From Halomonas meridiana (GTDB taxonomy: Bacteria; Pseudomonadota; Gammaproteobacteria; Pseudomonadales; Halomonadaceae): a DNA stretch of 64,000 nt. Below are positions 3,809 to 60,153 of this stretch, piece by piece. The notes under the pieces are model-generated. The model searched no databases, had not been told where the DNA came from, and saw only the letters and a program-made list of their open reading frames with translations. The first letter of the stretch is position 1, and each line of letters begins with the position of its first letter. Both the position numbers and the translations under genes were made by a program. The stretch is from positions 2,728,001 through 2,792,000 of the forward strand of contig NZ_CP024621.1 in NCBI RefSeq assembly GCF_009846525.1. The letters run 5' to 3'.

Positions 3809-4777
3809 ATGCGCGTTTTTTCTAATCCGGTCGGTGCCGGTTCACTCTGGTTTGATAATTTGGTCACGGCGGATGGTGTGCCGGTGGCCTACGACCCCCA
3901 GGCGCGGGCGTTCATTCCCATGCCGCCCTTCTGTGCCAACCGCGACGTGATTGGCTGTAACTGGATTGCCCCGAAGCAGGGCGAGTTCTGCCGCGCCTGC
4001 GCGATGACCGCCCTGGCCCCAGACCCTTCCATTTCCGATGCGATACCCAACTGGGCACACACCGAGGCGGCCAAGCGCTGGGTGATCGATAACCTGGGCC
4101 GCTGGCACTGGTTTCGCCCGGAAGACCCCGGCGCGCCGCCGGTGTTTCATATGCTGGCGGAAGGCGGTACGCCTGTCCCTATGGGGCACGTGGGCGGCGT
4201 GGTAACGATTAGCGTGGCGGAAGCGGATGCCCTGGTGCGCACCACCCGCAAAGAGGCGTTGGATGAGCCTTACCGCACTATGATTGGCCATATGCGCCAT
4301 GAAATTGCCCATATGCTGTGGTGGCGGCTTAGCCTGCGGGAGGATTTTCTGGCGGCCTTCCGCGAGATGTTTGGCGATGAGCGGGAGGATTACCCAGCGG
4401 CCTTGCAGCGCCACTACCAAAACGGCCCGCCGGCGGATTGGCAAACGCGGTTTCTGTCGACCTACGCCTCTTCCCACCCCCACGAGGATTGGGCGGAAAC
4501 CGCCTCGCACCTGCTGCACCTTACGGACATCACCGACAGCTTCGTATCCTCGGGCATGACGTCGCCCGCGCTACCGGACGACCACAACTGGGATGCCTAC
4601 GCTGAACCGGATTCAGAGCGGCTAATTCATATTGCGGCGTCATTGGTAGCAGGCGTGAACCATGTCAATCGTTCGATGGGGCTGTCGGATCTTTACCCGT
4701 TTGTGCTTTCCGAAGTGGCGCTGCGCAAGCTGGCGTTCGTTCACGACTGGCTGCGGCGCGGGGCGCAAGGGCTGTAG
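3809..4777 (+). CDS. Putative zinc-binding metallopeptidase (paralogue 1)
   Basis: A 322-residue protein of the zinc-ribbon plus peptidase family that is often found beside ATP-grasp/alpha-E/transglutaminase clusters. The N-terminus has a four-cysteine ribbon-like set (Cys42, 50, 61, 64). The catalytic HEIAH motif is at residues 164-168 within MRHEIAHMLWW. A C-terminal helical part contains HPHEDWAETASHLLHL, with acidic residues that could supply the third zinc ligand. No signal peptide is seen, so it should be cytoplasmic. A longer paralogue lies at 48175 inside that cluster; this copy stands alone. Substrate unknown. Confidence 0.8.
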   Translation: MRVFSNPVGAGSLWFDNLVTADGVPVAYDPQARAFIPMPPFCANRDVIGCNWIAPKQGEFCRACAMTALAPDPSISDAIPNWAHTEAAKRWVIDNLGRWHWFRPEDPGAPPVFHMLAEGGTPVPMGHVGGVVTISVAEADALVRTTRKEALDEPYRTMIGHMRHEIAHMLWWRLSLREDFLAAFREMFGDEREDYPAALQRHYQNGPPADWQTRFLSTYASSHPHEDWAETASHLLHLTDITDSFVSSGMTSPALPDDHNWDAYAEPDSERLIHIAASLVAGVNHVNRSMGLSDLYPFVLSEVALRKLAFVHDWLRRGAQGL

Positions 4778-47952: not shown

Positions 47953-48018
47953 GATGCGTTTCCTCGGGTTGTGTTTGTTATGGGATCGAATAAGGCGCTA
48001 CTAGGGTATATCAGCAAG

Positions 48019-48034
48019 TTGACGTAAACGTCAA
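48019..48034 (-). promoter_or_regulatory. LiuR-like palindrome upstream of mmsA
   Basis: TTGACGT-AA-ACGTCAA is a perfect 16-bp dyad 67 bp upstream of mmsA. On the minus strand it contains a -35-like TTGACG, and TATACC follows at -10 distance with an 18-bp spacer. MerR-type LiuR regulators of branched-chain amino acid catabolism use comparable ACGT-rich dyads. The regulator itself is not in the window. Confidence 0.5.
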
Positions 48035-48174
48035 TTAGCCTCTGGGCAAAGATAATTTCCGCATCGAGCGACGATTTGGCTTTCCCTCTCAGTCAGGGCC
48101 TCGCTATGCTGAGACAGTTGCGTATCAGCACTCACCTTCGTGAGATGCGCTGTGGTGATCACAAGGAGGCATCC

Positions 48175-49236
48175 ATGCAGACGTTTAGCTGCCGCTGTGG
48201 CAATCCGCTGTTTTTCGAGAACACTCACTGCTTGGCCTGTGAGTCGGAGGTAGGCTGGTGCCCCGCTTGTCGTCATATCGTGGCACTGGCACCGCTGGAT
48301 AGCGGCGGCTACCGCTGCACCCATGAAGGCTGCGGTACGGCGCTGATGAAGTGCCACAACTACGCCGTCGAAAACGTTTGTAATCGGATGGTCGTGATGG
48401 CCGAAGGGCACGCGGATACGCTGTGCGACTGCTGCCGCTATAACGAGGTGATTCCCGATTTAGAGGTCGACGGCAACCGGGAGCGTTGGGCAGCGCTGGA
48501 GAGTGCCAAACGGCGGCTTTTCTATACGCTGGATTTGCTCAAGCTTCCCCATGGCGTCGAGGGCGAGGACATCCGCGTTCCGCTGAGCTTTTCGTTCATG
48601 GCTGATGCGCTGCCCGACCACGGTCTATGGCGTTCCACGGCGAACCAAGAGAAGGTCTACACCGGCCACGCCAACGGCCATATCACCATCAACGTCAAAG
48701 AAGCCGATGACGTAGAGCGTGAGCGGCTGCGTGTCGACATGAACGAATCCCACCGCACGCTGATCGGCCATTTTCGTCATGAAATCGGCCACTACTACTG
48801 GGATCTGCTGGTCAAAGACCAAGACGAAGCCGCCAGCATTCGCGTATTCGGCGACCACAACCACCCTACCTATGGCGAAGCCCTGGAGCAGTACTATCAG
48901 CAAGGCGCGCCGGCAGACTGGCCCTCGCGGTTCATTTCCGCCTACGCCGCCATGCATCCGTGGGAGGATTTCGCCGAGACGTTTGCCTTCTATCTGGACA
49001 TGGTGGCCGTGCTGGATACGGCACTGCACATGGGCCTCTCACGTGCCGAGTACGACGGCTCTTTGGAGAGCATGCTTCAGGCGTTTCATCAGGTGGGCAT
49101 GGCAGTGAACGAACTCAATCGTGACATGGGCCTGCTGGACTTGGCACCCGGCGTCATCGCCCCGGCGGTGCGTGAGAAGCTGGCGTACCTGCATGAACTC
49201 ATTCAACAGGCGAACGCCAGCTCTCAAGCGGCCTAG
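48175..49236 (+). CDS. Zinc-ribbon metallopeptidase (paralogue 2, in cluster)
   Basis: A 353-residue paralogue of the gene at 3809. The N-terminus has a much richer zinc-ribbon region: Cys6, 8, 19, 22, 29, 32, 48, 53 and 60, with the CRCGN and CPAC knuckles. HEIGH at 202-206 (HFRHEIGHYYWD) is the metal-binding motif, and the shared C-terminal block MHPWEDFAETFAFYLDM includes probable third ligands. AAGGAGGCATCC precedes ATG 48175. It is convergent with the alpha-E gene, 0 bp apart at their stops. Association with the ATP-grasp/alpha-E set recurs in other bacteria, so a role in processing the cluster's peptide product is a reasonable inference. Confidence 0.85.
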   Translation: MQTFSCRCGNPLFFENTHCLACESEVGWCPACRHIVALAPLDSGGYRCTHEGCGTALMKCHNYAVENVCNRMVVMAEGHADTLCDCCRYNEVIPDLEVDGNRERWAALESAKRRLFYTLDLLKLPHGVEGEDIRVPLSFSFMADALPDHGLWRSTANQEKVYTGHANGHITINVKEADDVERERLRVDMNESHRTLIGHFRHEIGHYYWDLLVKDQDEAASIRVFGDHNHPTYGEALEQYYQQGAPADWPSRFISAYAAMHPWEDFAETFAFYLDMVAVLDTALHMGLSRAEYDGSLESMLQAFHQVGMAVNELNRDMGLLDLAPGVIAPAVREKLAYLHELIQQANASSQAA

Positions 49237-50235
49237 TTAATCGTTGTCATGGTCGCCTGTGTGGCTTTGGGTTTGACGCTGGGTGACCCGAGGAACGCCG
49301 TCGCCGTTCACGAAGTAGGTAGCGCTAAGCGTATCGTGGATGGCGGCAAAGCCAATTTGCAGTTCGTCCACGAAAGCGTGCAGCTTGCTCGGCGAGTGCG
49401 CCAGCGCCTGAATATCCGCATCGACCACGTCGGCTCGTACCAACGACACCGTCGCCGCGACGCGGTCTTGGCGGGGCAGTAGCTGTAGCTCGTGCCCCAA
49501 GGTTTCCAAACTACAGGCAATGGAGCGAGGCAAATGCGGATCTTGCAGCAGAAAACGCAGCACGTCCGGGCCGCGCACCCTTAGCCTGACCTGTTGACGA
49601 TACATTTGATACGCGGTGAGTGACTTCAAGACGCTCATCCACTGCAGGTTCTCGAACGGCAGCAGCTCTTCAGGGTTTTGCGGCAGCAGGCTGGCCGAAC
49701 GCACATCGACGATCCGCGTGGTCATATCTGCCCGCTCAAGCTGGCGGCCCAGTTTGATGAACGTGCGCGCCGGGCCGTGGCTCAAGGTGCCTTCGATCAA
49801 CCCGGTCAACGTTTGGCAGCCACGAATGACGTTTTTCAAAAATGCGTCTCGCCGTCGAGGGCTCACGCCGTTTTCCGCGTGGTCCGCGACGTTAAGATAG
49901 AGCTGATTGACCTCTTCCCAAATCTCGCGGGGCACTACGTCCCGGGTGGTGCGTAAGTTCTCCCGGGCGCTCGCCAGCGCCGAGAGAATCGAGCTGCCGT
50001 TTTGGGCATCGGCACACAAAAAGTGCACCACGCTACGCTCGTCGAAACTGGAATGGCGGGCATTGAAGGCCTCCAGCGTCCCGGTCATTTCGATGAGCGG
50101 CGCCCAGCCCAGTGGCAAATGCCGAGGCAAGTCCAGCATCAAATGGCTGTTGACGCTCAGTAACCGCGCGGTATCTTCGGCACGCTCGATGTAGCGCGCC
50201 ATCCAGTAGAGGTTTTCAGCAACGCGTGACAGCAT
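49237..50235 (-). CDS. Alpha-E domain protein
   Basis: A 332-residue all-helical alpha-E (DUF403) protein. The start MLSRVAENLYWMARYIERAE followed by DTARLLSVN is the domain hallmark, and SHGPARTFIKLGRQLERADM is the conserved helix with acidic and basic pairs. Alpha-E proteins accompany circularly permuted ATP-grasp enzymes and may act as subunits or bind the peptide product; their chemistry is not proven. ATG 50235 follows AAAGGAGCC. It starts 4 bp after the ATP-grasp stop, so the two are one operon reading left from the sigma-54 promoter. Confidence 0.92.
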   Translation of the reverse strand: MLSRVAENLYWMARYIERAEDTARLLSVNSHLMLDLPRHLPLGWAPLIEMTGTLEAFNARHSSFDERSVVHFLCADAQNGSSILSALASARENLRTTRDVVPREIWEEVNQLYLNVADHAENGVSPRRRDAFLKNVIRGCQTLTGLIEGTLSHGPARTFIKLGRQLERADMTTRIVDVRSASLLPQNPEELLPFENLQWMSVLKSLTAYQMYRQQVRLRVRGPDVLRFLLQDPHLPRSIACSLETLGHELQLLPRQDRVAATVSLVRADVVDADIQALAHSPSKLHAFVDELQIGFAAIHDTLSATYFVNGDGVPRVTQRQTQSHTGDHDND

Positions 50236-50239
50236 GGCG

Positions 50240-51724
50240 CTAGGCTCCTTTCTGCTCAGCGGCACCCGCCGCGTTCTCGTCGGTCTCGACGATCCAGGTG
50301 TCTTTACTACCGCCCCCTTGGGACGAATTGACCACCAACGAACCCTCGACCAGCGCCACGCGAGTGAGTCCCCCGGTGGTGACGTGGGTTTCCGGGCCGG
50401 AGAGAATGAAGGGACGCAGATCGACGTGGCGAGGCTGAGGCAAGCCGTTGGCCAGCGTTGGCGTGGTCGAGAGGGCCAGCGTCGGCTGGGCCATGTAGTT
50501 ACGCGGATTTTCGTTGATCAAGCGCGCGAACTCGTCGCGCGTCTCTTTGGTGGAGCGTGGGCCGATCAGCATGCCGTAGCCGCCGGACTCGTTGGCGGGT
50601 TTCACCACCAGCTCATCCAAATGGTCCAGCACGTACTTGCGATCCTCTTCGAACATGCATAGATAACTCGGCACGTTCGGCAGCAACGGCTCTTGATCCA
50701 GGTAGTAGCGGATCAGCTCAGGGACGAAGGCGTAGACGACTTTGTCGTCGGCAACCCCTGCCCCAGGTGCGTTGGCCAGCGCGACCTTTCCTGCGCGCCA
50801 GGCGCGCATCAGCCCCGGCACGCCCAGCATGGAGTGCGGGTTGAACGCCTCTGGATCGAGGAACTCATCGTCCACCCGGCGATAGATCACGTCGACACGG
50901 CGCAGGCCCTCTACCGTGCGCATGTAAACCACGTCGTCGTCATCGACCAGCAGATCGCTGCCTTGCACCAGCTCGACGCCCATTTGTTGGGCAAGGTAAG
51001 CGTGTTCGAAATAGGCAGAGTTATAGATCCCCGGTGTCAACACGACCACCTGTGGGTCATCACCCGGGCGCGGCGACATGGCTGCCAGCATGTCGTAAAG
51101 CTGCGCGACATAGTCATCCACCGGCAAGATCTTGCCCGACGCGAACAACTCCGGTAGTACGCGTTTGGTGACGTTGCGGTTTTCCAGCATGTACGAAACG
51201 CCCGACGGAATGCGCAGGTTATCTTCCAACACATAGAGCGTGCCATCACCGCCACGCACCAAGTCAGACCCGCAAATATGTGCCCAAACGCCATGGGGAG
51301 GATTGATGCCTACACATTGAGGTCGGAAATTGGCCGACTGAGCCAATACTTCCGCGGGGAGTACTTTATCTTTCACGACGCTCTGTTCGTGATACAGATC
51401 GTCGATAAACAAGTTCAGCGCTTGCACCCGCTGCTTCAAGCCCGCTTCCGTTTTACGCCACTCATTGGCGGGTATGATGCGGGGAACGATATCGAAAGGC
51501 CAAGCACGGTCGATCATCGCCCCTTCTGAATAAACGGTAAACGTAATACCCATCGTGCGAATGGCAATTTCTGCCGCCGTTTTGCGTTCGGCTAACTCTT
51601 CAGCGCTGAAGCGCGCCAACATGTTACACAACTCATCCGCAGAAGCACGTGGTTTGCCCGGTGCCGCCAGCAACTCATCGTAAAAATCACGGCACGCATA
51701 GTTATTCCAATCGACTTGGCTCAT
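50240..51724 (-). CDS. Circularly permuted type 2 ATP-grasp protein
   Basis: A 494-residue ATP-grasp enzyme of the circularly permuted type 2 family. LEDNLRIPSGVSYMLENRNV and the ATP-binding lysine block VVKPANESGGYGMLIGPRST are intact, as is the metal- and substrate-side LRPFILSGPETHVTTGGLTR. Relatives are predicted carboxylate-amine ligases that make peptide-like bonds. The C-terminal residues (ENAAGAAEQKGA) are low in complexity. The gene starts 73 bp into a 434-bp AT-rich divergent region with a sigma-54 promoter. It is co-transcribed with the alpha-E gene. Confidence 0.93.
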   Translation of the reverse strand: MSQVDWNNYACRDFYDELLAAPGKPRASADELCNMLARFSAEELAERKTAAEIAIRTMGITFTVYSEGAMIDRAWPFDIVPRIIPANEWRKTEAGLKQRVQALNLFIDDLYHEQSVVKDKVLPAEVLAQSANFRPQCVGINPPHGVWAHICGSDLVRGGDGTLYVLEDNLRIPSGVSYMLENRNVTKRVLPELFASGKILPVDDYVAQLYDMLAAMSPRPGDDPQVVVLTPGIYNSAYFEHAYLAQQMGVELVQGSDLLVDDDDVVYMRTVEGLRRVDVIYRRVDDEFLDPEAFNPHSMLGVPGLMRAWRAGKVALANAPGAGVADDKVVYAFVPELIRYYLDQEPLLPNVPSYLCMFEEDRKYVLDHLDELVVKPANESGGYGMLIGPRSTKETRDEFARLINENPRNYMAQPTLALSTTPTLANGLPQPRHVDLRPFILSGPETHVTTGGLTRVALVEGSLVVNSSQGGGSKDTWIVETDENAAGAAEQKGA

Positions 51725-51824
51725 GGGCGCTCTCCTGGCGCTAGGGTGGAAGCGGCAACTTCCTTAATTCAGTAGTGTAGGCCTGCCGCGTGCAATGTAC
51801 GTAGCAACTTGACCATATAAACAC

Positions 51825-51839
51825 GCAAAACTCGTACCA
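51825..51839 (-). promoter_or_regulatory. Sigma-54 promoter of the ATP-grasp/alpha-E operon
   Basis: TGGTACGAGTTTTGC on the minus strand matches the sigma-54 consensus TGGYACRNNNNTTGC at every fixed position, with the obligatory GG and GC ten bases apart. The start of transcription should fall near 51813, about 90 nt before the ATP-grasp start codon. Confidence 0.75.
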
Positions 51840-51968
51840 TATTCCCCGCTATTTCAACGCTTAATCCGAGTTTGATACTCGCGATTCTCTCTATCTAACG
51901 TTATTGGTCCCCTTGTTATGCATAAATGTACTGACACTGCTCCTTTTTAGTCCCCCATTAAACTAAAG

Positions 51969-51983
51969 GCACCAAAATAGTGC
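51969..51983. promoter_or_regulatory. NtrC-type enhancer site
   Basis: GCAC-CAAAATA-GTGC, the same GCAC-N7-GTGC dyad as the NtrC sites upstream of E. coli glnA. Its centre is about 138 bp upstream of the -24 element of the sigma-54 promoter, a normal enhancer distance. One clear site only; no second copy is obvious. Confidence 0.65.
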
Positions 51984-52158
51984 ATGAAAGTTAATACTCA
52001 TGAGGCGATGACAATTTTCCACACTCTTTAAACGTCTTAGTTCATATTGCAGCTGCAAAATAGTTCAACTCCAACGATACTTCTGGGTACTTATTTTCTT
52101 CACCGTCGCGTTACGCTGGCGTCGCGCGGTGACTTTTGGCTTTCTTTGAGGGTGGCTC

Positions 52159-55100
52159 ATGACCATTCGCGTTGCCTTGCATCACCGCACGACCTACCGC
52201 TTCGACCGCCCCGTCAAGCTGTCACCTCATGTGATCCGGTTACGCCCGGCCCCTCACTGCCGTACTCATATCGATGCCTATTCGCTGACTATCTCTGGGG
52301 ATGATCATTTTCTGAATTGGCAGCAAGATCCGTTCGGTAACTTCAATGCTCGTGTGGTATTTCCTGAACCGCGCAAAGAGCTGACCATTGCCGTCGAGCT
52401 CGTTGCGCCGATGACGGTGATCAATCCGTTCGACTTCTTTTTGGATGACGTTGCCCAGAAGATTCCGTTCACCTACCCCGACGAGCTCACCAAAGAGCTT
52501 GGCCCTTACCTGGAGGTGACCGAAGCGGGACCACGGCTGCTGGAGTGGCTAAAAGACGTCTCTCTCGAGCCGACCACCAGCGTCGACTTCCTCGTCGCCC
52601 TCAACCAACGCCTGCAGAAAGACATCAGCTACTTGGTGCGCATGGAGCCTGGCGTACAAAGCTGCGAAGAGACGCTGACCCTGGCGAGCGGCTCCTGTCG
52701 CGACAGCGCTTGGCTGTTGGTGCAGATACTGCGCCATTTGGGCCTGGCGTCGCGGTTTGTGTCGGGCTATCTGATTCAGCTCACGCCGGATGTCAAAGCG
52801 CTTGATGGCCCCAGCGGCACCGACGTGGACTTTACCGACCTCCACGCCTGGACCGAAGTCTTCCTACCTGGTGCAGGCTGGGTCGGCCTCGATCCCACCT
52901 CTGGCCTCTTTGCCGGTGAAGGGCATATCCCGCTAGCCGCCACCCCCACCACCGGCAGCGCTGCGGCCATCACTGGCTTTTCTGATAAGTGCGAGGTGGA
53001 GTTTGATGTGGAAATGCGCGTTGAGCGCATTCATGAAGACCCGCGTGTCACCAAACCGTACAGCGACCAACAGTGGGAAAAAATTCTTAAGCTAGGCGAC
53101 CAAGTGGATCGCGAGCTCAACGAGCAGGATGTTCGCCTCACCATGGGCGGTGAGCCAACGTTTGTTTCCATTGATGATATGGAAAGCCCCCAGTGGAACA
53201 CTGAAGCATTGGGTGAACATAAGCGCGAACGTGCCGAAGCGCTGCTAACACGGCTTCAAGCTGCCTACGCTCCGGGCAGCGTCATCCAACAACAGCAAGG
53301 CAAGTGGTACCCCGGCGAGCCGCTTCCCCGCTGGGCATTGGCCTGTTACTGGCGCAAAGATGGCGTACCGCTGTGGCGCGACCCGACCTGGCTTGCCTGT
53401 ATGGAGGGTGCGCCCTCTGTGGCCGTCGATGATGCTATGGCGCAGCGCTTTACCCGTGCGCTTAGCAAACAGTTGGGTATTGCCGAGCGCCACTGGATTC
53501 CTGCCTTTGAAGATGCCTACTACTACCTGTGGAAAGAGCAAACGCTGCCGATCAACGTGGACCCACGTAAAGCTGATTTGAAAGACGACGCCGAGCGCCG
53601 ACGCCTCGCTCGCCTGTTGGAGCAGGATCTCAGCGCGGTCGTTGGCTATGCGCTGCCGCTACGCCACTCTATCGCCCAGTCGCATCGCTGGGAAAGCGGT
53701 CGCTGGCCGTTGAAGCGCGACCACCTTTTCCTGGTGCCCGGCGACTCGCCTATGGGGCTGCGCCTGCCGCTCTCTGCCCTGCCCTGGGCCGACCCAGAAG
53801 ACCAGCCCCAGCCGCAGTCGCTGTTTGCCCCACGCCCGGCGCTGGGCGACATCCATGGCGAAGTGGCCCGCCGTAACGCCGAACAGCACCGCTTCACGAA
53901 TGCCGAGCGCTTGGGGCAGACCACCCATCCAAGCCATCGTCACCCGGAAGGCGAATCGGTGCAGCAGCAACCCAGCGCAGAGGAGGATCGAGAGCACACG
54001 ATCATCCATACGAGCCTGTGTGTCGAACCCCGTGAGGGACGATTGCATATTTTCTTGCCGCCCCTGACTCAGCTCGAGCACTACCTCGACCTGCTCAGCA
54101 GCATCGAAGAGTGCGCCCGCGAGCTTGCCTGCCCGGTCATGATCGAAGGCTACGCCCCGCCCCGTGACCCGCGCCTGGAAAGTTTCCAGATCACTCCCGA
54201 CCCGGGCGTCATCGAAGTCAACATCATGCCCGCCGCCAGCTGGAAGACGCTGGTCGCACAGACCGAACGGCTCTATGACGAAGCGCGTCAAGCACGCCTG
54301 GGTACCGAAAAGTTCATGCTGGATGGCCGCCATACCGGCACCGGAGGCGGCAATCACGTGACCTTGGGCGGCGTCACCCCGGACGATTCGCCGTTCTTAC
54401 GTCGTCCCGACTTGCTGGCCAGCCTAGTGACTTTCTGGCAGCATCATCCGAGCCTGTCGTACTTGTTTTCTGGGCTGTTCATTGGCCCCACCAGCCAAGC
54501 GCCGCGCGTCGATGAAGCGCGCCACGAAGCGCTCTACGAACTGGAAATTGCCCTACAGCAAATGCCTAAGGGCGAGGTAGTACAGCCATGGCTGGTCGAC
54601 CGCCTACTGCGGCACCTTCTCACCGACCTGACCGGCAACACTCACCGCGCCGAGTTCTGTATCGATAAACTCTATTCGCCGGATAGCGACAGCGGCCGCC
54701 TGGGGCTACTGGAGCTGCGTGGCTTCGAAATGCCTCCCCACGCGCGGATGGGACTGATGCAAATGTTACTGATTCGTGCGCTGGTCGCCCGCTGCTGGAA
54801 AACGCCGTACCGTGCCAAACCGGTTCGCTGGGGAAGTGCGCTACAAGACCGCTGGATGCTGCCCCACTATTTATGGGAAGACTTGAACGACGTGCTCAAC
54901 GACCTGCGCCATCATGGCCTCGATTTCGAGCTGGCTTGGTTTGCGCCGTTCTTGGAGTTCCGCTTCCCGGTGCACGGTCGTCTGCATACGCCGATGCTCT
55001 CGATCGAGCTTCGCCAAGCCATCGAGCCCTGGCACGTACTGGGCGAAGAGGCGACCGCAGGCGGCACCGCACGCTACGTCGACTCATCGGTGGAGCGTTT

Positions 55101-55512
55101 GGAAGTCAAAGTGAGCGGCATGAGCGGCGACCGCTACGTCGTTACCTGCAACGGCCGTCCGGTGCCGTTGGCCGCCACCGGACGTAACGGTGAAGCCGTG
55201 GCTGGGGTACGCTACCGCGCTTGGCAGCCTCCTTCTGCGCTGCATCCGCAGATTCCGATTCACGCGCCGCTGGTGTTCGATGTCATCGACACCTGGAACC
55301 AACGTTCAGTAGCAGGCTGCACCTACTATGTGGTACACCCCACAGGGCGCAGCTTTGAAACCTTCCCTGTGAATGCGTTTGAAGCCGAAGCCCGCCGTTT
55401 AGGGCGTTTCAGCGACAGTGGCCATACCCATGGCTATCGGGTTCCTACGCCCGAAATGCCGAGCCAGGAGCTGCCCTGCACGCTAGATCTACGCTGGAAC
55501 CCACGCTCATGA
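52159..55512 (+). CDS. Transglutaminase fused to a DUF2126 amidoligase-like region
   Basis: A 1117-residue protein. The N-terminal third is a transglutaminase-like module with catalytic Cys180 (GSCRDSAWL), His229 (DLHAWTE) and Asp245 (WVGLDPTSG). From about residue 320 on it is DUF2126, predicted to be an amidoligase-type (glutamine-synthetase-like) fold: VRLTMGGEPTFVSIDDMESP, YYYLWKEQTLPINVD, and GRHTGTGGGNHVTLGGV are conserved markers. A hydrophilic, low-complexity stretch (residues about 590-615) links two parts of it. The gene is divergent from the ATP-grasp operon and 73 bp from the fusion gene. It may join and trim amide bonds in one product. Confidence 0.9.
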   Translation: MTIRVALHHRTTYRFDRPVKLSPHVIRLRPAPHCRTHIDAYSLTISGDDHFLNWQQDPFGNFNARVVFPEPRKELTIAVELVAPMTVINPFDFFLDDVAQKIPFTYPDELTKELGPYLEVTEAGPRLLEWLKDVSLEPTTSVDFLVALNQRLQKDISYLVRMEPGVQSCEETLTLASGSCRDSAWLLVQILRHLGLASRFVSGYLIQLTPDVKALDGPSGTDVDFTDLHAWTEVFLPGAGWVGLDPTSGLFAGEGHIPLAATPTTGSAAAITGFSDKCEVEFDVEMRVERIHEDPRVTKPYSDQQWEKILKLGDQVDRELNEQDVRLTMGGEPTFVSIDDMESPQWNTEALGEHKRERAEALLTRLQAAYAPGSVIQQQQGKWYPGEPLPRWALACYWRKDGVPLWRDPTWLACMEGAPSVAVDDAMAQRFTRALSKQLGIAERHWIPAFEDAYYYLWKEQTLPINVDPRKADLKDDAERRRLARLLEQDLSAVVGYALPLRHSIAQSHRWESGRWPLKRDHLFLVPGDSPMGLRLPLSALPWADPEDQPQPQSLFAPRPALGDIHGEVARRNAEQHRFTNAERLGQTTHPSHRHPEGESVQQQPSAEEDREHTIIHTSLCVEPREGRLHIFLPPLTQLEHYLDLLSSIEECARELACPVMIEGYAPPRDPRLESFQITPDPGVIEVNIMPAASWKTLVAQTERLYDEARQARLGTEKFMLDGRHTGTGGGNHVTLGGVTPDDSPFLRRPDLLASLVTFWQHHPSLSYLFSGLFIGPTSQAPRVDEARHEALYELEIALQQMPKGEVVQPWLVDRLLRHLLTDLTGNTHRAEFCIDKLYSPDSDSGRLGLLELRGFEMPPHARMGLMQMLLIRALVARCWKTPYRAKPVRWGSALQDRWMLPHYLWEDLNDVLNDLRHHGLDFELAWFAPFLEFRFPVHGRLHTPMLSIELRQAIEPWHVLGEEATAGGTARYVDSSVERLEVKVSGMSGDRYVVTCNGRPVPLAATGRNGEAVAGVRYRAWQPPSALHPQIPIHAPLVFDVIDTWNQRSVAGCTYYVVHPTGRSFETFPVNAFEAEARRLGRFSDSGHTHGYRVPTPEMPSQELPCTLDLRWNPRS

Positions 55513-55585
55513 AACGGCTAATGCTTTCTTATCCGCGCTAGCTACAGGATAATCCGCCCCCTACCCGCTTAGGACAAACAGGATC

Positions 55586-57994
55586 ATGACCGCCCCTGTC
55601 TCTCCCTCACTGCTCGAGCTCGGCGCTGCCGGGCTCGTTGAGGATTACTCGAATCAGCTAGGCAAGGGACAGCCCGGCACGTTTGATGCGATGCTCGATC
55701 GTCAGGGGCAACTGCGCCCCGGCTGGCAGAGCTTGCTCAACGCCCTGGAAACACTCGGCGCGGATGGCCGCTACCAGCAGCACGAAGAGATTCAGCGCCT
55801 GCTGGCGGAAAACGGCGTGATTTTCAATATGCACGAAGATACCCAGGGCCGCTCCTGGCGGCTCGACCCGCTCCCCTGGGTGATCGATCAAGTGCAGTGG
55901 CAAGCGCTAGAAGTCGGATTGATGCAGCGCACGCGCCTGTTCAATGCGCTCTACGATGACCTGTATGGCCCGCGCAAACTGGTCGACGCGGGGCTACTAC
56001 CGACCCAGGCCATTCTCGCTTCTCCCCACTTTTTGCTGCCTTGCCACGGTTCGCAACCCAGCGACCGCCCCGCGATCAGCTTTCATGGCATTGACGTTAT
56101 CCAAGATACCGACGGCCAGTGGCGGGTAATCGGGGATCGCCTGCAGGCCCCTTCGGGCACCGGTTTCGCGCTGGAAAACCGGATCTTGATGGCCCGCGCG
56201 CTGCCGGAGATGTACCGCAACGCGCCGCTCAAGCGGTTGGCCGGCTTCTTGGACAAGTACCACCGCACCCTGACCGCGCTGGCCTACCAGCACCGCGATA
56301 ACCCAACGATCGTGCTGCTCACCCCCGGTCCTGGCAGCCCACGCTACTTCGAGCACGCGTATCTGGCGAACTACCTGAACATCGACCTCGCCGAAGGGCA
56401 AGACATGGTCGTGCGCGATAGTCAGCTATGGCTGCGCACCTTAGGGGGATTGCAGCCCGTGGATGTGGTGCTGCGCCACTGCGACGACGCTTACTGCGAC
56501 CCGCTGGAGCTGCGCGGTGACTCGCAACTGGGCGTGCCGGGGCTGCTACAAGCGACCCGCGCCAGCGGTGTGGCCATGTCGAATGCGCTAGGCGTGGGAG
56601 TGCTGGAGATGGCCGAGCTAGCAGACTACCTGCCTGCCCTTTGCCAGCATGTGCTGGGCGAAGAGCTGCTGCTGCCCAATGCCGACACGAGCACTCGACC
56701 GGCCACGGCACCGGTGTTCGATGCCCATATGCAGCGGTTATCCCCAGCGACGCTCAACCTACGCTGCTTCGTCTCGCGGATGCCGGGCAGCGTCGCGACA
56801 CAGCGCCAGCAGCCCAGCGACTACCACGTCATGCCAGGCGGGCTTGCATGGGTGGGTACGCCGGGGTCTCCGTCACTGAGCAGTCCGATCGTCAAAGATG
56901 TGTGGGTGACCGCAAATACGCCTCAACCTCATGTCAGCCAGCTGCGCCAAGCGCGTGGCCCGGTGGTCGCGACCCGCGATGGCACCGACCTGCCCAGCCG
57001 AGTGGCGGAAAGCCTGTTTTGGCTGGGTCGCTACGGCGAGCGCTTGGATGCGCGCGCCCGCTTGCTGCGTGAAGCGCTGATGCGGCTGATGGAGTACGAT
57101 CAGGACGAAATCGCAGACCAACTGCTGGATGAGCTGCTGCTAGCCCTCGACATCACCACGCTCCATCGTGATGGTGAGGATGCCAAACCGCCGCTCGTCG
57201 GCTTTGCACAAAAACGCACGGCGCTGTTGGCCCAGTTCGATGAACGCGACCCTCAAGCCCTGCAGCCGCTCTTTGCGAACATGCTGCGCAATGCCCGCAG
57301 CGTTCGCGACCACCTGGGAGATGACTCCTGGCGCGTCGTTCACCAACTGCGCCAGCGGGTGGATACGTTCAATCCAAGCCTCGGCGCCAGCGCCGCACGC
57401 CGCGCCTGCGAAGGGCTTTCTGCGCAGATCGCTGCGTTCTTTGGCTTGTGTAACGAAACCATGCCCCACCACTACGGCTGGCGCTTCATGGATATCGGCC
57501 GCTTCCTGGATCGCGTGCTGGGGCTGCTGTCGCTGCTCAAACTCACCCTCAACGCACCCCACTCGCCGGGGCTGGCGCTATGGGAAGTGGTGCTTGCCAC
57601 CACCGATAACTTTACCGCCTACCGGCGGCGCTACCGCAGCGAGCTGCACCCAGAAGCGATTTTGGATCTGCTGCTGTTCGATGAGACCAACCCGCGCTCG
57701 GTGGGCTATATGCTCAAGCGCTTGGAGCGGCAGATGGACCGACTGCCCGGCAGCTCATCGCCCTACCGGAATGCCGAACGGCGCTTGCTCATTCAAGCCA
57801 ACGCCGCGCTGCATCTCGCCGATATCGACCGGATCAGCCACTTGGCCGATACCCCGGATGCGCAGGCCGCGCTGGAGCAACTGCTGGACGAGCTGATTGC
57901 TCCGCTCAACGCGCTCTCCGATGCCATTAGCCACAGCCACTTTAGCCACGTGGAGCGGCCGCGCCAACTTGTCAGCATGGAGCCCGACGAATGA
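55586..57994 (+). CDS. ATP-grasp/alpha-E fusion protein with shortened ATP site
   Basis: An 802-residue fusion. Residues about 1-470 are a circularly permuted ATP-grasp (APSGTGFALENRILMARALP; FEHAYLANYLNIDLAEGQDM), and residues about 475-800 are an alpha-E domain (PSRVAESLFWLGRYGERLDA; HHYGWRFMDIGRFLDRVLGL). The stretch that normally holds the ATP-binding V-I/V-K-P lysine and the following loop should lie between LGEELLLPN and LNLRCFVSRM; only about 27 residues remain there, with no such lysine. ATG 55586 after AGGACAAACAGGATC. Its last codons overlap the second transglutaminase gene (ATGA at 57991). Confidence 0.9.
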   Translation: MTAPVSPSLLELGAAGLVEDYSNQLGKGQPGTFDAMLDRQGQLRPGWQSLLNALETLGADGRYQQHEEIQRLLAENGVIFNMHEDTQGRSWRLDPLPWVIDQVQWQALEVGLMQRTRLFNALYDDLYGPRKLVDAGLLPTQAILASPHFLLPCHGSQPSDRPAISFHGIDVIQDTDGQWRVIGDRLQAPSGTGFALENRILMARALPEMYRNAPLKRLAGFLDKYHRTLTALAYQHRDNPTIVLLTPGPGSPRYFEHAYLANYLNIDLAEGQDMVVRDSQLWLRTLGGLQPVDVVLRHCDDAYCDPLELRGDSQLGVPGLLQATRASGVAMSNALGVGVLEMAELADYLPALCQHVLGEELLLPNADTSTRPATAPVFDAHMQRLSPATLNLRCFVSRMPGSVATQRQQPSDYHVMPGGLAWVGTPGSPSLSSPIVKDVWVTANTPQPHVSQLRQARGPVVATRDGTDLPSRVAESLFWLGRYGERLDARARLLREALMRLMEYDQDEIADQLLDELLLALDITTLHRDGEDAKPPLVGFAQKRTALLAQFDERDPQALQPLFANMLRNARSVRDHLGDDSWRVVHQLRQRVDTFNPSLGASAARRACEGLSAQIAAFFGLCNETMPHHYGWRFMDIGRFLDRVLGLLSLLKLTLNAPHSPGLALWEVVLATTDNFTAYRRRYRSELHPEAILDLLLFDETNPRSVGYMLKRLERQMDRLPGSSSPYRNAERRLLIQANAALHLADIDRISHLADTPDAQAALEQLLDELIAPLNALSDAISHSHFSHVERPRQLVSMEPDE

Positions 57995-58869
57995 ATTACA
58001 CGCTGCGGCACACCACACGCTACCACTACAGCGCGCCGGTGACGCTCTGCCATAGCGAGGCACGCGTGCTGCCGCGCAAAACCCAGCACCAGCAGTGCGG
58101 TGCATCCACGCTCACCATCAGCCCCGAGCCCCAGGTGCAGGCCGAGCGGCGCGATGTGTTTGGCAACCGCGTGCTCTACTTCGCACTAGAGGACGTGCAC
58201 CAAACGCTGGACGTGACCGTCGTGACGCCGCTCAACACCCAACCACTCGGGCCACTGCCAGGCAGCTCGCCAGCGTGGGAGCGTGTAGCCGACCAGCTGA
58301 GCAAAGACAGCCGCTTCGATCGGCAGCTCTACCGGCTCGACTCGCCGTTCATTCGTCGTAACGACGAGCTGGCGGCGTTTGCCCGCAGCTGTTTCACGCC
58401 CGGCCGCCCGCTCGTCGATGCCGCGCTGGCGCTCAACCAATTGATTTACGACACCTTCGACTACGACCCCAGCTTCACCACCCTGGCGACACCACTCAGC
58501 GAGGTGCTGGCCAACCGACGGGGGGTTTGCCAAGACTTCGCCCATCTGGCCATAGGTGCACTGCGCTCGGTCGGCTTAGCGGCACGCTACGTGAGCGGCT
58601 ATTTGGAAACTCAGCCGCCGCCTGGGCAGCCACGGCTGATAGGTGCCGATGCCTCCCACGCGTGGCTGGCCGCATGGATTCCCGACTGGGGCTGGCTGGC
58701 GCTGGACCCGACCAACGGCACGGTGGCCGGAGAACAGCATCCGGTACTGGCGTGGGGTCGCGATTACGCGGACGTAGCACCGCTCAAAGGCGTGATGAAC
58801 GGCGGCGGCGACCACCGTCTAGAGGTGGAGGTGGACGTCATGCCCCTCACCGACAACAGCGCGGCCTGA
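57991..58869 (+). CDS. Transglutaminase-like protein
   Basis: A 292-residue transglutaminase-like enzyme. The catalytic triad is Cys180 (RGVCQDFAHLAIGAL), His223 (DASHAWLAAW) and Asp239 (LALDPTNG), with the usual N-terminal LRHTTRYHYSAPVTLCHSEA. No signal peptide, so a cytoplasmic protein. In bacteria such proteins are cysteine peptidases or acyltransferases; here the neighbours suggest processing of a peptide-type product. It is translationally coupled to the fusion gene and ends the right arm of the cluster. Confidence 0.93.
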   Translation: MNYTLRHTTRYHYSAPVTLCHSEARVLPRKTQHQQCGASTLTISPEPQVQAERRDVFGNRVLYFALEDVHQTLDVTVVTPLNTQPLGPLPGSSPAWERVADQLSKDSRFDRQLYRLDSPFIRRNDELAAFARSCFTPGRPLVDAALALNQLIYDTFDYDPSFTTLATPLSEVLANRRGVCQDFAHLAIGALRSVGLAARYVSGYLETQPPPGQPRLIGADASHAWLAAWIPDWGWLALDPTNGTVAGEQHPVLAWGRDYADVAPLKGVMNGGGDHRLEVEVDVMPLTDNSAA

Positions 58870-58887
58870 GCCGCGCCCGTGGAACGT

Positions 58888-60153
58888 TCACCGTTGAATC
58901 AACCCGTTGGTTAACCACGGCAACCACGCCAGCAGCACCAGCGTGACCAGCGTCGCCAATAAAAAAGGCAGCAGCGCTCGGAAAATTTTCAGCGGCGGCG
59001 CGCCGGTCATGGAGGACGCAATGAATAGCCCAGCCCCCACCGGGGGCGTCAGCAAGCCCATCACCAGCGTCAAGCAGACCACCACGCCAAACTGATAGGG
59101 GCTGATGGCAAACTGGCTCTGGGCGATGGGCATCAAAATGGGCACCACCAAAATCAGCGCGGCAATGCCATCGATCACCATTCCCACCAGCAGTAGCGCC
59201 CCAATCACCAACAGCAGAAAGAGAAACGGGCTGCTGGTCAGCGCGGCAATCCATTCAGCGGCCATTTGCGGCAGCTGCTCGTAAATCACCACCCAGCCAA
59301 ACACGCCCGCTGCGGCAATCAACATGATCACCAGTCCGGCATTGATCGCCGTGCGCGTGAGCACCTGAGGAAGCTGACTCAAACGCAGATCGCCATACAC
59401 GAAGCGCCCCATCAATAGCGCCGCGAGCGAGGCCAGCGCCGCCGACTCCGTGGGCGTGGCAATGCCCATCAGAATGCCGCCGATGATAATTACTGGAATC
59501 AGCAGCGCAGGCATCCCCCATAGCGCATCGTGCAGCGCCTCTTGCCGACTGGGCCACTGCCCTTTCGGGTATTGCTGCACCAGCCCCACCAGAGCGATGA
59601 CTACAAAAAAGCTCGCGCCCAATAACAGCCCCGGCAGTAGCCCGGCGATAAACATCTCCGCAATGGGTACTTGGGCCATCACACCAAACAGCACGAACAG
59701 CATGGAGGGCGGAATGATCGGCGACAGCAGCCCCCCCGCCGCCGTAATCGCCGCGCTGTAGGGCGTGTCGTACCCCTCCTCCTCCATCGCAGGCACCATG
59801 GCACGTGACATGATGGCGATTTGTGACGCCGCCGAGCCAATAATCGCCGCCATCATCATATTGGCGACTAGGTTGATATAGGCCAAGCCACCGCGAAACC
59901 CGCCCACCAGAATCCGCGCGAGGGCAATCAAGCGCTTGGTGAGTCCGCCCTCGTTCATCAACTCCCCGGCCAGCATGAACAGCGGGATCGCCAGCAGGCC
60001 GTAGCTTTCAATGGCACTAAACAGCTGCTGCGGATAGGAGTCGAATAGCACCGTATTGCCGGAAGCTTGGATGTACCACATCGCCGTGAGCGCTAGCACC
60101 AAAGCAATGGGGACCGCCCCCAGTAACAGCAACAGAAACACCACGACCGTCAT
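58888..60153 (-). CDS. dctM: TRAP transporter large permease (DctM)
   Basis: A 421-residue TRAP large membrane subunit with about 12 helices. Conserved family elements are IPLFMLAGELMNEGGLTKRL, GSAASQIAIMSRAMVPAMEE and PPSMLFVLFGVMAQVPIAEM. It moves the substrate with sodium, delivered by the DctP protein. The start is ATG 60153, which overlaps the stop of the small subunit (ATGA); an upstream in-frame extension is not used. Last gene of the operon. Substrate is unknown, probably a carboxylate. Confidence 0.93.
   Translation of the reverse strand: MTVVVFLLLLLGAVPIALVLALTAMWYIQASGNTVLFDSYPQQLFSAIESYGLLAIPLFMLAGELMNEGGLTKRLIALARILVGGFRGGLAYINLVANMMMAAIIGSAASQIAIMSRAMVPAMEEEGYDTPYSAAITAAGGLLSPIIPPSMLFVLFGVMAQVPIAEMFIAGLLPGLLLGASFFVVIALVGLVQQYPKGQWPSRQEALHDALWGMPALLIPVIIIGGILMGIATPTESAALASLAALLMGRFVYGDLRLSQLPQVLTRTAINAGLVIMLIAAAGVFGWVVIYEQLPQMAAEWIAALTSSPFLFLLLVIGALLLVGMVIDGIAALILVVPILMPIAQSQFAISPYQFGVVVCLTLVMGLLTPPVGAGLFIASSMTGAPPLKIFRALLPFLLATLVTLVLLAWLPWLTNGLIQR

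Follow-up and report, generated by a model that had tools for sequence, protein, structure and literature searches.

Within a stretch of 64,000 nucleotides from the Halomonas meridiana genome (NZ_CP024621.1, positions 2,728,001 to 2,792,000; hereafter the window, whose own coordinates are used throughout), six genes (48175-58869) form two divergently transcribed units and a convergent metallopeptidase gene. The minus-strand unit encodes a stand-alone circularly permuted ATP-grasp protein (50240..51724; CP_ATPgrasp_2, 562 bits) followed by an alpha-E protein (49237..50235; Alpha-E, 297 bits). The plus-strand unit encodes a transglutaminase-like (TG) domain fused to DUF2126 (52159..55512; DUF2126, 1333 bits), a fusion of CP_ATPgrasp and Alpha-E domains (55586..57994) and a separate TG-like protein (57991..58869; 76 bits), whose gene overlaps the stop codon of the fusion gene. 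The sixth gene (48175..49236, plus strand) codes for a zinc metallopeptidase of the Peptidase_Mx family (henceforth Mx) with an N-terminal zinc ribbon (285 bits against a cut-off of 27), and its stop codon abuts that of the alpha-E gene tail to tail, base to base. The start of Mx at 48175 fits its alignment with 18 relatives, the list of open reading frames (ORFs) giving a longer frame from 48076; likewise, the alpha-E frame is open to 50265, and its probable start is the conserved MLSRVAENLYW near 50235, immediately beyond the stop codon of the ATP-grasp gene. All six ORFs named in a preliminary description of this DNA are present with Pfam matches far above cut-off, and its count of two transglutaminases and two alpha-E proteins is borne out, one copy of each being fused. 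The host genome (3.86 Mb, one contig) has two alpha-E places, both in this cluster, a single DUF2126, and genes for RpoN and NtrC. Its only proteasome-family match is HslV, followed by an HslU-sized frame, and no Anbu was matched in it at E 1e-10. An Rfam search across 48000-59500 gave no match.

The HExxH motif of Mx spans residues 202-206, and H202, E203 and H206, along with E264, D265 and E268, are invariant in 19 aligned sequences. In the TG domain of the DUF2126 protein C180, H229 and D245 are conserved, as are C180, H223 and D239 in the separate TG-like protein (41 and 39 sequences respectively); we take these to be the catalytic residues. In the stand-alone ATP-grasp, all positions at which 97% or more of 68 sequences agree carry the conserved residue. 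Sequence searches of the PDB recovered 3n6x as a relative of the ATP-grasp and weak matches for the TG domain, and none for alpha-E, Mx or the DUF2126 part. The alpha-E model is confident and all-helical, with no clear solved relative. The model of DUF2126 assumes a glutamine-synthetase-like fold, with GmaS among its fold neighbors, and identity to glutamine synthetase, GmaS and YbdK ligases is 5-14% over the aligned parts; the predicted fold suggests that DUF2126 may function as an ATP-dependent amide ligase. Upon alignment with the stand-alone form, the fused ATP-grasp was found to lack about 60 residues carrying the conserved lysine (Lys375) and the glycine-rich GGYG loop, so that the statement in the preliminary description that both arms are complete holds only in part. 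This segment is also missing in the Vreelandella and Halomonas relatives of the fusion, and the lysine is absent in two Salinicola sequences and kept in one from Marinobacter. The window protein is hence truncated at the presumed ATP site and has probably lost ATP binding. Across the whole fused class the glycine loop is poorly conserved and the lysine occurs in 27 of 39 sequences, so an intact ATP site may not be a defining feature of DUF2126/alpha-E clusters.

We surveyed 194 genomes of the order, recovering DUF2126 in 56, alpha-E in 102, Mx in 43 (41 over cut-off) and Anbu, a relative of the proteasome, in 44; alpha-E is present in all 56 DUF2126 genomes and all 44 Anbu genomes. It also occurs in 39 of the 41 genomes with an over-cut-off Mx, as against 63 of the 153 others (p 6e-11, the genomes being related), and by coordinates checked on gene maps Mx adjoins the cluster in 22 of these 41; at one locus (L124) it is absent from the drawn map, probably hidden by a longer frame. 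We also collected the best 80 named Mx loci, with flanks of up to 9 kb, using an alignment whose first sequence is the window protein; the nearest are from Vreelandella and Halomonas. An ATP-grasp or alpha-E gene lies in the fetched flanks of 34 (24 of 70 once ten close Halomonadaceae relatives are set aside), of which 23 have DUF2126, 7 have Anbu and 4 have neither; the other 46 show no ATP-grasp or alpha-E gene in flanks that in some cases end early with the contig, two of them having a TG gene. The layouts themselves vary: Mx follows ATP-grasp and alpha-E genes opposite a convergent Anbu, heads the whole row (L207), is divergent from TG-DUF2126 in Paraburkholderia, or comes after a TG gene in Rufibacter, where ATP-grasp, alpha-E, TG and Mx all stand together (L183). 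These observations support the proposal that Mx belongs to the system; our literature search found no paper naming it as a partner. A second Mx paralogue with little of the zinc ribbon (3809-4777, plus strand, 322 aa) lies in the window 43 kb from the cluster, and three relatives of it in other genomes (L163, L168, L169) are also away from such clusters.

Mapping 40 DUF2126 regions from the 56 genomes, picked to spread over families, we found the genes for TG-DUF2126, the ATP-grasp/alpha-E fusion and TG in line in 35 (L044 with broken frames); the exceptions are L040, L046, L053, L057 and L073. Fifteen of the mapped regions have the stand-alone ATP-grasp and alpha-E genes immediately before the trio, so that all five genes form a single row; 8 of the 40 resemble the window in having a divergent stand-alone ATP-grasp gene. 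Two congeners (L049, L054) and nine Halomonas, Vreelandella and Salinicola loci (L172-L180) share the window layout, in which Mx adjoins the alpha-E end. In one family (f24: L046, L057, L073) TG-DUF2126 is apart from the ATP-grasp/alpha-E genes, which are located elsewhere in the same genomes.

The Anbu search gave 49 matches in 44 genomes, from which 44 distinct places in 43 genomes were fetched (47 rows minus the duplicates L134, L136 and L148). Left out were G004:C13 and G016:C152 (about 30% identity) and the fragments G070:C268 and G078:C3, and two pieces from G092 were counted as one locus; matches in G160, G043, G182, G080, G109 and G029 contain one internal stop, perhaps from alignment past the gene end. 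ATP-grasp/alpha-E genes lie within 4.5 kb of Anbu in 36 of the 44 places and are missing from 8. These 36 loci divide into 24 with TG, 11 with Mx, one with neither (L128) and none with both, where the figure for TG combines 20 nearby genes with four from a domain-level search (L126, L127, L146, L152), TG may in three cases belong to a DUF2126 unit, and the absence of Mx from TG-bearing loci rests on gene maps, 11 loci having been rechecked at the domain level. Thus, in Anbu loci that have it Mx occupies the TG slot, an arrangement that is not universal, given the Rufibacter locus noted above. Eleven loci (L112-L122) carry ATP-grasp, alpha-E and Mx in one direction with a convergent Anbu gene and no TG. 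In a quick tree of the ATP-grasp proteins, in which long branches were flagged, the deepest split sets a side with most Mx and DUF2126 types (56 rows: 26 Mx, 27 neither, 3 TG) against a TG-Anbu side (23 rows: 19 TG, 1 neither and 3 Mx, namely two Caballeronia and one Rufibacter). This separation implies that the switch between TG and Mx may have happened few times. Two simpler schemes were rejected. Replacement of Anbu by Mx fails, as Mx stands beside Anbu in 11 of the 36 loci with ATP-grasp/alpha-E and the two are independently distributed over the 102 alpha-E genomes (four-way split 19/25/20/38, p 0.41). DUF2126 is no strict replacement of Anbu either, for the two co-occur; Anbu is found in 14 of the 56 alpha-E genomes with DUF2126, a smaller share than in those lacking it (30 of 46; p 5.6e-5).

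The divergent units are separated by 434 bases, in which we identified a -24/-12 (sigma54) promoter-like element TGGTACGAGTTTTGCG (51824..51839, minus strand) some 100 bases before the start of the ATP-grasp gene, and a single good NtrC-like palindrome GGCACCAAAATAGTGCA (51968..51984, plus strand) judged against the consensus. An element in register with the first occurs in six of the 11 related loci (L049, L054, L172, L173, L174, L175). On the other side, five related loci carry TGGAACGATACTTGCG before TG-DUF2126, from which L172 differs at the second core dinucleotide; the window has the altered counterpart TCCAACGATACTTCTG (52070..52085, plus strand). Of the regulatory signals claimed earlier, the -24/-12 element and the NtrC-like palindrome are thus on the ATP-grasp side, and on the DUF2126 side the counterpart is altered. 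Upstream regions, where a gap of at least 80 bases and 350 bases of sequence were available, were scored by an ad hoc weighting of the -24/-12 consensus (the window not being a row, and the same three duplicates being dropped). Scores of at least 18 were reached by 34 of 55 ATP-grasp heads and 11 of 23 TG-DUF2126 heads, as against 15 of 300 control genes of the same loci, the relatedness of the genes meaning that p values overstate independence. Over the whole window neither the NtrC pattern (46 matches against 50.6 expected at that stringency) nor the -24/-12 pattern is above chance, so the case for regulation rests on position, partial conservation and the head scoring. Another NtrC-like palindrome lies inside the alpha-E gene (50011-50027), probably by chance. 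These signals agree with the reports of a sigma54/NtrC-activated Burkholderia cenocepacia cluster annotated as DUF404/407, DUF403 and transglutaminase-like (PMC5491218) and of an RpoN site predicted upstream of a CP_ATPgrasp gene from Bradyrhizobium (PMC13207237), and Anbu of Pseudomonas putida is reported to be upregulated under nitrogen limitation and unchanged under several other conditions (PMC5666114). Nitrogen control of the cluster, perhaps through binding of NtrC, is plausible.

Based on these observations we lean, by a modest degree, towards the proposal that the cluster specifies a cytoplasmic peptide- or amide-ligation and trimming system switched on under nitrogen limitation. Phospho-NtrC would bind between the divergent units and activate the sigma54 form of RNA polymerase, at the ATP-grasp promoter at the least. 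Partnered by alpha-E, the stand-alone ATP-grasp is expected from its family to activate a carboxylate with ATP and join it to an amine, and the glutamine-synthetase-like DUF2126 may form a second amide bond. Cutting or remodeling of the product could then fall to the TG-like cysteine enzymes and to the zinc peptidase Mx, and the fused ATP-grasp/alpha-E of this lineage, having lost the segment at its ATP site, would probably serve the DUF2126 arm as a scaffold or as a subunit that binds substrate. A survey of 1703 small frames (25-110 aa) revealed no peptide substrate gene, and small-ORF families in the cluster gaps and flanks, to which this search was confined, reach at most 3 loci (the window not being among the rows); the substrate is therefore more likely to be a metabolite, a non-ribosomal peptide or cellular proteins. 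A bolder version, which we consider unlikely as a whole, is that Mx serves the Anbu/alpha-E system as an unrecognized peptidase for deconjugation or processing, that it and the TG-like enzyme can stand in for each other, and that the entire set is a nitrogen-starvation conjugation system building a non-ribosomal peptide tag through the ATP-grasp and the glutamine-synthetase-like ligase, a counterpart of pupylation without a tag gene.

Several points weigh against the ligation-and-trimming proposal or parts of it. The confidence of the DUF2126 model is moderate (mean pLDDT 65), and 44 of the best 80 named Mx loci have no other cluster gene in the fetched flanks, with the second Mx paralogue of this genome also lying outside the cluster. 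Among the sampled genomes, four from the same family have neither alpha-E nor DUF2126, and hence the system is dispensable. The more distant L176-L180 lack the ATP-grasp-side element in register. On the DUF2126 side the window differs from the TGGAACGATACTTGCG loci at both core dinucleotides, which may mean that its two arms have ceased to be regulated together. Published reports add that Anbu-operon genes are moderately and constitutively expressed, unchanged under several other conditions (PMC5666114), and that in Yersinia bercovieri, where the ATP-grasp releases phosphate from ATP, Anbu showed no peptidase activity and the operon proteins pulled down no specific complex (PMC6376114).

The last result also bears on the alternative of protein tagging, in which the ligases would label proteins with an amino acid or short peptide, and the TG, Mx or Anbu peptidases would remove the tag or degrade the target, as in pupylation. 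Such a role was proposed for the set in 2009, as peptide synthesis or tagging (as cited in PMC5666114, PMC6376114 and PMC3597751), and would accommodate both the fold of DUF2126 and the frequent adjacency of Anbu to the same ATP-grasp and alpha-E genes; given that no conserved small tag gene was found in the cluster gaps and flanks and no Anbu in this genome, we hold it to be doubtful. Alternatively, the cluster might make and later hydrolyze gamma-amide or peptide conjugates of amines as a nitrogen depot, by chemistry akin to that of GmaS or GlnA. The presence of GmaS among the fold neighbors, the sigma54-type promoters, the inclusion of the B. cenocepacia cluster in the NtrC regulon (PMC5491218) and a network link to urea-metabolism domains in marine metagenomes (PMC3597751) point this way, but in our judgement three protease classes exceed the needs of such a cycle, making a depot improbable. 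That Mx is outside the system, and adjacent by chance or through shared ancestry of the region, draws on the Mx loci elsewhere and on its convergent orientation, which precludes an operon with alpha-E, and is very improbable in view of the differing, several times co-directional, layouts in gamma-, beta- and alphaproteobacteria and a Bacteroidota genome and of the near-constant company of alpha-E.

The cluster is thus real, conserved and of an already proposed kind, and its earlier presentation as an undescribed system is not supported; the idea of predicted amide-bond enzymes accompanied by peptidases is, with the metallopeptidase as a member. Within the literature searched, and as far as our searches could tell, the Mx partnership, the sigma54 signal recurring across lineages and the decayed fused ATP-grasp are new. 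The Anbu, alpha-E and ATP-grasp genes are widespread in bacteria and have had a proposed role since 2009; a third peptidase class, a recurrent sigma54-type promoter and a degraded ATP site offer cheap tests, as they indicate a growth condition, a protein pairing and a subunit to treat as non-catalytic.

Among known systems, B. cenocepacia I35_5080-5083 has DUF404/407, DUF403, TG-like and large TG-like proteins under sigma54/NtrC activation, the likeness of its large protein being by annotation, and the accessible text does not mention Mx (PMC5491218). DUF2126 resembles glutamine synthetase, GmaS and YbdK in predicted fold, and differs in its low sequence identity. Pupylation combines a glutamine-synthetase-fold ligase with a proteasome. 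The cluster shares with it, by analogy only, the ligase fold and the theme of nitrogen stress, and differs in that no tag gene was found in the cluster gaps and flanks and no Anbu in the genome. The Anbu operon (ATP-grasp, alpha-E, TG, Anbu) has neighboring ATP-grasp and alpha-E genes of the same families and, in many members, sigma54-type promoters; in contrast, the window has a convergent Mx after alpha-E in the TG position and no proteasome-like Anbu, its TG genes are in the divergent DUF2126 unit, and its ATP-grasp falls outside the TG-Anbu side of the tree. Compared with the DUF2126 clusters, the window is distinguished by its two divergent units, its Mx gene and the truncated fused ATP-grasp of its clade, and it has all five of their proteins: ATP-grasp, alpha-E, TG-DUF2126, the ATP-grasp/alpha-E fusion and TG.
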